This document shows, piece by piece, positions 18,151 through 57,842 of a stretch of DNA of 64,000 bases (the first letter of the stretch is position 1; the number at the start of each line of letters is the position of its first letter). Source of the DNA: Tardiphaga alba (GTDB lineage Bacteria > Pseudomonadota > Alphaproteobacteria > Rhizobiales > Xanthobacteraceae). The stretch lies in the NCBI RefSeq assembly GCF_018279705.1, contig NZ_CP036498.1, forward strand, positions 5,535,001-5,599,000, given 5' to 3'. The position numbers and the translations under genes were made by a program. Under the pieces are notes generated by a model, which ran no database searches, was not told the DNA's origin, and saw nothing but the letters and a program-made list of their open reading frames with translations.

Positions 18151-19319
18151 GTGCGCACGCAGGTTGTCATTATCGGCTCGGGCCCGGCAGGGCTTCTGCT
18201 GGGCCAGTCTTTGCATGCTCGAGGAATTGATAACGTCATCCTTGAACGCAAGGATCAGGACTATGTTTTGGCCCGGATCCGGGCTGGTGTTCTCGAATCC
18301 GGCACTGTGGCGCAACTTGAGGAGCTTGGTGTCGCTGAAAGACTCCAAGCCGAAGGGCTAGAGCATACCGGGATTGAGCTGCTCTTCCTCGGCCAGCGCC
18401 ATCGCCTCGACTTGAGCAAGAGCACAGGGCGATCCGTCACGATCTATGGGCAAACCGAAGTCACCCATGATCTGATGCTGGCACGTGCGTCGTCAGGGCA
18501 AGTCAGCGTATACGAAGCCGAGAACGTGACGTTGCATGGCTTCGACGGCGACCGCCCCACCGTGCGCTATTCGAAAGACGGCGCGTCTCATGAGATCACA
18601 TGCGACTTTATTGCAGGCTGCGACGGCTTTCACGGCGTGTCTCGCGCAAGCATTCCGTCATCTGCACTCAGTATTTACGAGAAAACCTACCCATTCGGCT
18701 GGCTCGGCCTGCTCACCGATGCTCCACCGGTGTCGCCGGAGCTGATCTATGTAAATCATCCGCGCGGCTTTTCCCTCTGTTCCATGCGCTCCCCTACCAG
18801 AAGCCGCTACTACCTGCAGGTTGGGCTCGACGAGCATGTCGAGAACTGGTCGGATGAGCGCTTCTGGATGAGTTGCGAACGCGGCTTGATGAAGAAGCTG
18901 CGGACAACCTCGTGACCGGGAAATCCCTGGAAAAAAGCATTGCACCTCTGCGCTCGTTTGTCGCCGAACCGATGCGGTTCGGTCGCCTGTTTCTTGCCGG
19001 GGACGCCGCGCACATCGTGCCGCCGACCGGCGCCAAGGGGCTAAATCTTGCAGCTTCCGATGTTTTCTATCTTGCGACCGCTTTGGCCGAGTTCTACGAG
19101 GAAAATTCCCAGGCCGGCCTGAATGCCTATTCGGTAAAGGCGCTCTCACGGGTCTGGAAAGCCGTCAGATTCTCTTGGTGGATGACGTCAATCCTGCATC
19201 GCTTTCCTGGCACGGAGCCGTTCGAAACCCGCTTGCAGACCGCCGAACTGGACTACATCGTCGGTTCAGAAAAAGGCCAGGCGGTGCTTGCCGAAAACTA
19301 CGTAGGCCTGCCGTACTAA
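18151..19319 (+). pseudogene. pobA: 4-hydroxybenzoate 3-monooxygenase (PobA), frameshifted
   Basis: The two halves are in different frames: 18151-18915 gives the N-terminal 254 residues and the frame open from about 18873 gives the rest. The N-terminal part has GSGPAG (FAD), RAGVLE, and [13 protein letters not shown] plus RSRYY, matching the substrate-binding Ser/Arg/Tyr of 4-hydroxybenzoate hydroxylase. The second half has [26 protein letters not shown] and ends AENYVGLPY. Adding one G to the GG at 18866-18867 reads [20 protein letters not shown] and gives 389 residues, the normal length. The enzyme would hydroxylate 4-hydroxybenzoate to protocatechuate with NADPH. GTG start, GGAG seven bases upstream. 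Either a recent pseudogene or a sequence error. Confidence 0.92.
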
Positions 19320-19389
19320 CCCGCGGTCCCGCAACGCGGAAGCAAGCAGCGCGCTTGCGGTTCACGGGTTGGATCACATGCCGGTGCAG

Positions 19390-19429
19390 CCGCGGTGCTT
19401 GAGATCGTCTTCGATCTCAAGCACCGCGG
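19390..19429. terminator. Long bidirectional hairpin between convergent genes
   Basis: Perfect 18-base inverted repeat CCGCGGTGCTTGAGATCG with a 4-base loop TCTT. It lies between the pobA-like gene (rightward, ends 19319) and the aldoxime dehydratase-like gene (leftward, ends 19432), so it can terminate both transcripts. There is no strong T-run on either side. Confidence 0.75.
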
Positions 19430-19431
19430 GA

Positions 19432-20475
19432 CTACGATTTGGCCTCATCGAACCATCTCAGCAGGCCCGTTTCCGGATGGCAATTGACGTATACGAAGTC
19501 GGGATTGTCGCCGTCCAGGACGACGACTTCATGCCACAGCTTGAGGTTTCGCCCTTCCGGGTGCTTTTTGACCATGCCGTGAAAGCTGTTGAAGATCGCC
19601 AGATGGGTGGGATGCGTCTTCGACCAGGCCTCCAGGTCCTCAAGTGATTTGAAGATCGCGAAGCCGAAGGTTGCGAGACGAGCGCTACTGTCCGCTCCGC
19701 GCTCGGTCATGAAGCGGCACGAAAAACAGCCGGTCTCGACAGGATTATCGCGCAGAAAGTTCATCCCCTCGACCAAGCGCGGATGAACTTCACCACGATA
19801 GGTGTCAAGTTCGGCGCCGGTGCATTCGGTCCAGTCCTGACCAGACTTGATGATCGCGGTGTTGACGGGAGGCTTGATCCTGATCATGCGCCCCATTGTG
19901 TCGGGCTTTCCATCAACGAGTTGCTTCACGGGGCTCTCGAGACAATCCGACGCCGACACTTCAAGCCGGTGCCGCATGGCTCCCCAATAGGCGTGCTCGC
20001 GCACCTCGGTGCCCTTGTTGTTCGCAGCCCGGGCAATGCCGAATTCCTGTTTCTTTCCTGAAATTGTTTCCAGTCGCTCGACCGGAACACGGATCGTCTC
20101 ATGCCATACGCCGATGTCAGCAATCAAACGATCATCGCTCTTCAGCCATTGCTCATATTCGCTCTTCGCCAGCCATTGCTCGTATCGATGTGAGCTGAGC
20201 CAGTACGCAGTAAGCACCTCGTTTCGCACACCGCGCTGATCAATGTAGAACGAGTGATCGACGAAATCCGGCACGGCGGATTGTTTGAGAAAAGCCCGAA
20301 GATGGGCGATCGCCGCATCGATATCGTGCTCTTGGCCGCCCTGTAACCCGAAGTAGGAGATGACCGGCTGATGGACATCGCTCCCGAACTTCGATGCATG
20401 CGCGGGATAAGGAGGGTTCCAGTCTGGCCGGGGGAGCGCGCGTCGTATGTAAGATTCGTCGGATGAAACAGTCAT
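19432..20475 (-). CDS. Aldoxime dehydratase family haem protein (phenylacetaldoxime dehydratase-like)
   Basis: This 347-residue protein belongs to the haem-containing dehydratase family that converts aldoximes to nitriles. With the start at 20475 the His in FNSFHGM is residue 299, the position of the proximal haem ligand reported for bacterial aldoxime dehydratases. A second His in KLWHEV is residue 315. The ATG at 20475 has GGGGGA five bases upstream; in-frame ATGs at 20487 and 20532 are alternatives. No nitrilase, nitrile hydratase or amidase gene is visible in the window, so the downstream step is unclear. The family assignment is firm; the physiological substrate is not. Confidence 0.88.
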   Translation of the reverse strand: MTVSSDESYIRRALPRPDWNPPYPAHASKFGSDVHQPVISYFGLQGGQEHDIDAAIAHLRAFLKQSAVPDFVDHSFYIDQRGVRNEVLTAYWLSSHRYEQWLAKSEYEQWLKSDDRLIADIGVWHETIRVPVERLETISGKKQEFGIARAANNKGTEVREHAYWGAMRHRLEVSASDCLESPVKQLVDGKPDTMGRMIRIKPPVNTAIIKSGQDWTECTGAELDTYRGEVHPRLVEGMNFLRDNPVETGCFSCRFMTERGADSSARLATFGFAIFKSLEDLEAWSKTHPTHLAIFNSFHGMVKKHPEGRNLKLWHEVVVLDGDNPDFVYVNCHPETGLLRWFDEAKS

Positions 20476-56316: not shown

Positions 56317-56406
56317 AGATCTGGCTCCAAATCCGCCCGTCCCACCGCGTCGCTCCCAGCGAGCTCGGGAAGAATAGAGCCTCCGCCTGAATGACGGCTT
56401 AGCGCC

Positions 56407-56424
56407 GATTGTGTTGAAGAAGTC
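56407..56424 (+). repeat. Left terminal inverted repeat of the IS
   Basis: GATTGTGTTGAAGAAGTC, matching the opposite end with two mismatches. Confidence 0.8.
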
Positions 56425-56481
56425 GGCAAGTTGGCTATCGGCGCGTGCACAGTGGGGCGGCATGCGAGCGTCTGCCCCAGT

Positions 56482-57842
56482 TCAGATGGGCATTGGAGCC
56501 GGTGGCGGGACCAGTTTTGCCAGCTTTCGAAGGTTCTGAGCGGTGGCGGCGAGCAGGAACTCGTCGCGAGCGCCGCAAGGGCCTCTCAGACGAAGCCGAT
56601 CGAGGCGCAGGATACGCTTCAGATGCGCGAACAACATCTCGATCTTCTTGCGTTCACGTCGCGAGGTTACGTAGGCTTCCGTCCTCGCGATCCCGCGCGC
56701 TACATCGCGAGCGCTCTCGTAGATCGAGCGTGGCACCTTGCGGGCTGGCATCTTCGGGCAACACCGTGGTTTGAGTTCGCAGATGTCGCAGTCACGTTTG
56801 CTGGCGCGATAGAGAAGCGTCGCTCCGTCGTTCACCAGTGTCCCGGTTGAAATCAGCACCTTGCCTGCAGGGCAGCGATAGATGTCGCTCTCCGGATCGT
56901 AGGCAAAGCCGTCGCGGGCGAATGTCCCATCATCGCGAGCGGACTTGTCGAACACAGGTATATGCGGCTCGATCCCCCGCTCGTTGACCAACCATCCCAG
57001 CGTCTCGGCTGATCCGTAGGCGCTGTCGGCGGCCAAACGCTGGGGTGGATGCCAAAACATTCCTCGGTACGTTCAATCATCGTACGGGCCGCACCGACCT
57101 CAGCCTGTCGAATGGCGCGTGTCGCCTCGACATCGACGATGACCGCAGCCTTCAAGTCGATCAGGTAGTTGTCGGCGTAGGCAAAAAAGGCGTGGCCTTT
57201 GCGAGCTCCGGTCCATTGCGCAGCCGGATCGGATCGGGAGACGAACTTCGGCACCGTCTCGCTCGCCGCACCCCACGCCGCTTCGTCCAGTGTGTCGAGG
57301 TACTCACGGACTAACCGCCGCACCCGGGCAAGCGCGTCCCAGTCATGGTCCTCGGTCCCTGCAGCGGATCGCTGCTTGTTGGCGTCGGCAGCGATCAGGC
57401 TGGCATCGACGGCAAAGGCCGTTCCGTCGATCAGCCCTTCTGCCATGCAACGCCGCACCACCGTCTCGAACAGCTTGCGCAGGAGATTGCAATCACGGAA
57501 GCGACCATGTCTGTTCTTCGAGAAAGTCGAGTGATCCGGCACCTCGCCATCCAGCCCCAGACGGCAAAACCAGCGATAAGCGAGGTTCAAGTGAACCTCC
57601 TCGCACAACCGGCGCTCCGACCGAATGCCGTAACAGTAGCCGACCAGCAGCATCCGGACGAGCAGCTCAGGATCAATCGATGGCCGTCCAGTCGAACTGT
57701 AGAATGGCGCCAACTCGCTCCGAATGACTGACAGATCGACGAACCGGTCGATGTTCCGCAGCATATGAGCCGCTGGTACGTGTCGCTCCAGCGAGAATTC
57801 GTAGAACAGAGCCGCCTGATCAGTCTGCTTCGGACCCATCAT
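56482..57842 (-). pseudogene. IS1182 family transposase, frameshifted
   Basis: The first frame covers the N-terminal region with ALFYEFSLERHVPAAHMLR, RPSIDPELLVRMLLVGYCYG, PDHSTFSKNRHGR and the first Asp in AVDASLIAADANK. The second frame (from about 57060) carries the second Asp in AADSAYGSAET, the Cys-rich CDICELKPRC and the Glu region RRERKKIEMLFAHLKR. Adding one base to the G run at 57042-57045 reads IHPQRLAADSAYG and gives 453 residues. The ATG at 57842 has GGAGG eight bases upstream. DDE transposase moving the element by cut-and-paste. Inactive as written. Confidence 0.9.

Follow-up and report, generated by a model that had tools for sequence, protein, structure and literature searches.

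The window analysed here, meaning the whole stretch of 64 kb, corresponds to bases 5535001-5599000 of a genome that consists of one contig of 5,857,905 bases and is rated 99.7% complete. The genes of the window are mostly accessory, one IS element and a recombinase are present, and the GC content (58.2%) is lower than in most control stretches of the same genome (58.3-63.4%). Five of the genes are each divided into two pieces in different reading frames, and the halves cover consecutive parts of one protein family (Table 1). Adjacent halves of one family in two frames, found five times, are not a product of chance.

Table 1. Split genes and the mobile element of the window, given in window positions, with the length over which both frames are open and the lengths of the two homologues used for each gene.
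Feature	Position	Strand	Pieces	Both frames open (bp)	Homologues (aa)	Evidence
pobA-like 4-hydroxybenzoate 3-monooxygenase	18151..19319	+	two frames: 18151-18915, 18873-19319	58	389, 390	Pfam FAD_binding_3, TIGR02360 halves, tblastn
ABC-2 permease	47335..49676	-	two frames: 47775-49676, 47335-47805	502	776, 776	Pfam, tblastn, open-frame interval
MalT-like LuxR-family regulator	50919..53599	-	body 51098-53599, DNA-binding domain 50919-51101	163	916, 873	profile matches, tblastn, open-frame interval
Tyrosine recombinase	55721..56328	-	body 55721-56254, start in other frame to ~56316-56328	55	197, 208	Pfam, tblastn, open-frame interval
IS1182 family transposase	56482..57896	-	two frames: 56853-57896, 56482-57060	220	460, 461	NF033551 halves, tblastn
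IS1182-like element	56393..57933	.				32-bp imperfect inverted repeats 56393-56424 and 57902-57933

The window breaks were tested by tblastn with ten homologues, two per gene. All ten homologues are single open frames, and compared with them each of the five frame changes has the same sign: the window is one base short. Stops, larger deletions and insertions were not found among the five breaks. The claim of the preliminary description that five genes are broken by one missing base each was thereby confirmed.

The first piece of the pobA-like gene, in frame 1, matches TIGR02360 profile positions 1-248 and the second, in frame 3, positions 244-390; both homologues are intact. The break lies inside the open-frame interval 18858-18915, which homology narrows to approximately 18867-18888. 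The run to which the loss had been assigned (18866-18867) has just two bases, but it is a plausible site. The genome's own paralogue of this gene (L002) encodes 391 aa in a single open frame. Beside the pobA-like gene, window positions 19432-20532 resemble OxdA, an aliphatic aldoxime dehydratase (NF050090, match below the cut-off), and this OxdA-like gene sits among CoA-transferase and ring-hydroxylase genes.

The permease gene is flanked by two HlyD-type genes, and its pieces, in frames -3 and -2, each match ABC2_membrane_3. Its break falls inside 47775-48276, at approximately 47808-47886 by homology. This interval holds several candidate runs, and the one proposed earlier (47846-47850) is among them. 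The body of the MalT-like regulator is read in frame -1 and matches NF003420 positions 11-660, while its DNA-binding domain is read in frame -3 and matches positions 841-893 as well as Pfam GerE. The break lies inside 51098-51260, an interval that homology does not narrow further and that holds three runs of three or four bases. The run proposed for this gene is one of these three candidates, but the coordinates given for it (51153-51156) were off by one, the run being at 51152-51155.

In the recombinase, residues 1-23 and 23-197 of the 197-aa homologue are found in frames -2 and -1, and homology places the break at approximately 56248-56251. In the transposase, residues 1-268 and 267-453 of the 460-aa homologue are found in frames -3 and -2, and the break is placed at approximately 57039-57045. 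Both positions agree with the runs named in the preliminary description. Its assignment of breaks to particular runs is thus well supported in these two genes and plausible in the pobA-like gene, whereas in the permease and the regulator the named run is one of several candidates. The genome carries two further IS1182 copies. The first (L054, 5672803-5674342, 91% identical) encodes a transposase of 471 aa in a single open frame; the second (L055, 473677-474977, approximately 90% identical) has an internal deletion of approximately 84 codons. In a stretch of the window without long ORFs, two neighbouring short ORFs (58364-58654 and 58675-58935) have similar translations, and they presumably resemble ribbon-helix-helix proteins.

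Systematic undercalling of bases predicts that the same-sign lesion should occur in unrelated and in essential genes elsewhere in the genome. Twenty 20-kb control stretches were taken from the same genome, and four of them (80 kb) were compared with five genomes of the same genus. L025 was the first to be compared, prompted by the flags of a rough detector; L021, L029 and L037 were picked by spacing and form the evenly spaced controls (60 kb). The five relatives together contributed 379 kb. Every genome's proteins were queried against the DNA of the remaining genomes, and each place at which one protein continued in a second frame was listed. In the 80 kb of this genome, 13 clusters were backed by at least two relatives, and all 13 were congruent with one base short. 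Clusters with one reference, which were of mixed sign, were left outside the counts. The 13 clusters reduce to 11 sites: L025 11229 and 11232 are one site, and L025 7668-7672 was removed because the base is also missing in two of the five relatives. One base more is present in all five relatives at nine of the 11 sites, and in both relatives that align at the other two.

The distribution of the 11 sites is uneven (three in L021, seven in L025, one in L029 and none in L037). The evenly spaced controls hold 4 sites in 60 kb and the window 5 in 64 kb, so there is no clear excess of breaks in the window over these controls. In the five relatives (379 kb), nine clusters with at least two references were listed, and they were of mixed sign. 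When at least three references were required, eight clusters were kept in the 80 kb of this genome versus three in the 379 kb of the relatives, and the latter three had net changes of -1 and +2 (both in G016) and -4 (in G009). Separately, approximately 100-bp dispersed repeats (L021 1439-1531 and 18390-18482; L029 6467-6590; L037 14705-14810) match at many places in each of several genomes of the genus.

Further stretches of the chromosome were searched as well. In ten stretches at 2.40-2.62 Mb, a search with 161 proteins of the relative G013 yielded 71 full-length matches along with three breaks of net -1 and one of net +2; the reverse search against G013 gave, from 160 proteins, 64 full-length matches and three breaks (net +1, -2 and +1). 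In the 60 kb around rpoB, the listed breaks were mostly single-reference and of mixed sign. One of them (L134, approximately 6992) has a net change of -1 relative to two references, and another (L132 9712, among short ORFs of 70-88 aa) is net +1, that is, one base longer, against two references. The essential gene rpoB itself is not broken, its frame being open over 1375 codons.

Two of these breaks affect essential genes of a growing organism. One of the net -1 breaks at 2.40-2.62 Mb is in the cysteinyl-tRNA synthetase gene cysS (TIGR00435), near base 2461800 of the contig. Over 80 alignment columns around the break, this genome has 79 bases and all five relatives have 80; cysS is whole in all five. 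The cysS pieces do not form one frame, and a six-frame search of this genome returned no second cysS match. A cell without cysteinyl-tRNA synthetase is not viable. Since cysS is indispensable, the consensus sequence is very probably wrong at cysS at minimum. The break in L134, near base 3788990 of the contig, splits rplK, the gene for ribosomal protein L11, between two frames; one piece matches TIGR01632 positions 1-73 and the other positions 75-139. Here too, this genome has 79 bases over 80 alignment columns, versus 80 in all three relatives aligned, and no second rplK copy was found in it. The gene is whole in four of the five relatives and is present in the fifth, where its two pieces are on separate contigs.

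The 3' part of cysS has a peculiarity of its own. Past approximately the middle of the gene (L115, approximately 1168-2820; 2461168-2462819), the DNA alignment to the same-genus genomes is lost, and the DNA after cysS aligns with them again. The C-terminal region is longer than in the relatives, and the 3' half of the gene is possibly a replaced, mosaic segment.

The missing bases are associated with short homopolymer runs. Among the 11 control sites, eight touch a G/C run at least three bases long and 10 lie at most one base from such a run; for random points drawn from these four stretches, the proportions are 8.4% and 11.7%. These figures are approximate, as the gap column chosen by the aligner is partly arbitrary. 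The earlier placement of the missing base in short G/C runs therefore stands for most sites if positions beside a run are included, but the base is not always inside a clean homopolymer. Beyond the short G/C run, some of only two or three bases, no common motif is visible at the break sites. In a run table restricted to this genome, long runs are depleted.

Several other ways of counting were less useful. The reference-free frameshift detector, which served for a first look and raised five flags in L025 and four in L029, was rejected as evidence: it flagged many ordinary operon junctions and caught one of the five window sites. A strict test, in which gaps had to be placed identically in all relatives, yielded one deletion and one insertion specific to this genome; it was rejected as a count, being unsound where gap placement differs among relatives. 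A noisy pairwise count of one-base gaps against G013 gave 39 versus 27, or 22 versus 7 for isolated gaps. Two pairwise sites (L021 6829 and L025 7681) were not counted, as they are not specific to this genome.

Taken together, these observations indicate that the five apparent pseudogenes are most likely artefacts of the genome's consensus sequence, a reading to which we assign a probability of about 0.93. The assembly would have lost single bases, for the most part within or next to short G/C runs, with polishing left incomplete, and each lost base would shift the reading frame so that a gene is split on paper. The lesion is spread genome-wide, with the 11 control sites, three more at 2.40-2.62 Mb and rplK, and it was found in unrelated and essential genes, as undercalling predicts, which supports this interpretation. 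With the identical lesion in cysS and rplK, the five window breaks need no further cause. In the living cell the five genes are probably intact, and we infer that the read technology or its polishing is at fault. The suspicion of systematic undercalling raised from the window was thus borne out by same-sign lesions at 11 sites across the four control stretches (80 kb) and in the sole cysS and rplK found. Its restriction to some 40 kb was not: the undercalling is a property of the whole assembly, as the controls have a similar density.

The main alternative is that the breaks are real pseudogenes, that is, natural frameshifts that arose under weak selection in the accessory or mobile genes of a region with lower GC. 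The low GC content of the window compared with most controls, the presence of an IS element and a recombinase, which are types of genes that decay, and the internal deletion in the IS1182 copy L055 are all in keeping with such decay. However, the same-sign lesion occurs at similar density in core genes elsewhere, including cysS and rplK, and the other window genes covered by the Pfam scan match complete domains for the most part. Decay would also be expected to leave a mix of lesion types and an excess in the accessory region, whereas every one of the five breaks in the window is short by a single base and the density hardly differs between the window and the evenly spaced controls. As an account of all five breaks, real decay is improbable. 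A real lesion could nevertheless exist at any single one of the five sites, and the transposase or the recombinase could well be truly broken.

It is also conceivable that the runs are correct and that the genes work as written, with the ribosome or the polymerase reading across short runs. Programmed frameshifting is used by some insertion sequences, and the breaks lie near G/C runs. Nevertheless, it is extremely unlikely that the organism restores the frames of many genes, including housekeeping genes, at short G/C runs, either after transcription or in translation, because the frame change is not conserved in any of the ten window homologues, in cysS of the five relatives or in rplK of the four that have it whole, and because the sites lack a motif beyond runs that are in part only two or three bases long.

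Under the artefact reading, the finding is most likely an ordinary one of low biological interest. It calls for caution and does not constitute a discovery: without reads, neither the pseudogenes annotated in this genome nor its "lost" functions should be trusted. A single-contig genome at 99.7% completeness can still carry such errors, and there may be hundreds of them genome-wide if the sampled density holds. With such errors, comparisons of gene loss or pseudogene content that use this genome would be biased.

The set of broken genes can be compared with two known situations. It resembles the ordinary pseudogenes of accessory regions in that regulators, transporters, IS and recombinase genes are frameshifted in a lower-GC stretch. 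Unlike such pseudogenes, it shows a single lesion type and sign and no clear excess over the core, and housekeeping genes are equally affected. Homopolymer indels are described as the main error of long-read assemblies, where they give rise to a surplus of frameshift pseudogenes (PMC12007338, PMC8011154). As in those assemblies with gene-fragmenting indels, single-base indels are tied to homopolymers, frameshift-only pseudogenes are in excess, and essential, conserved genes are affected (PMC12007338, PMC8011154). The present genome differs from the long-read cases described there in that its runs are short, mostly of two to five bases, and in that the control sites kept are all deletions (PMC12007338, PMC8011154).
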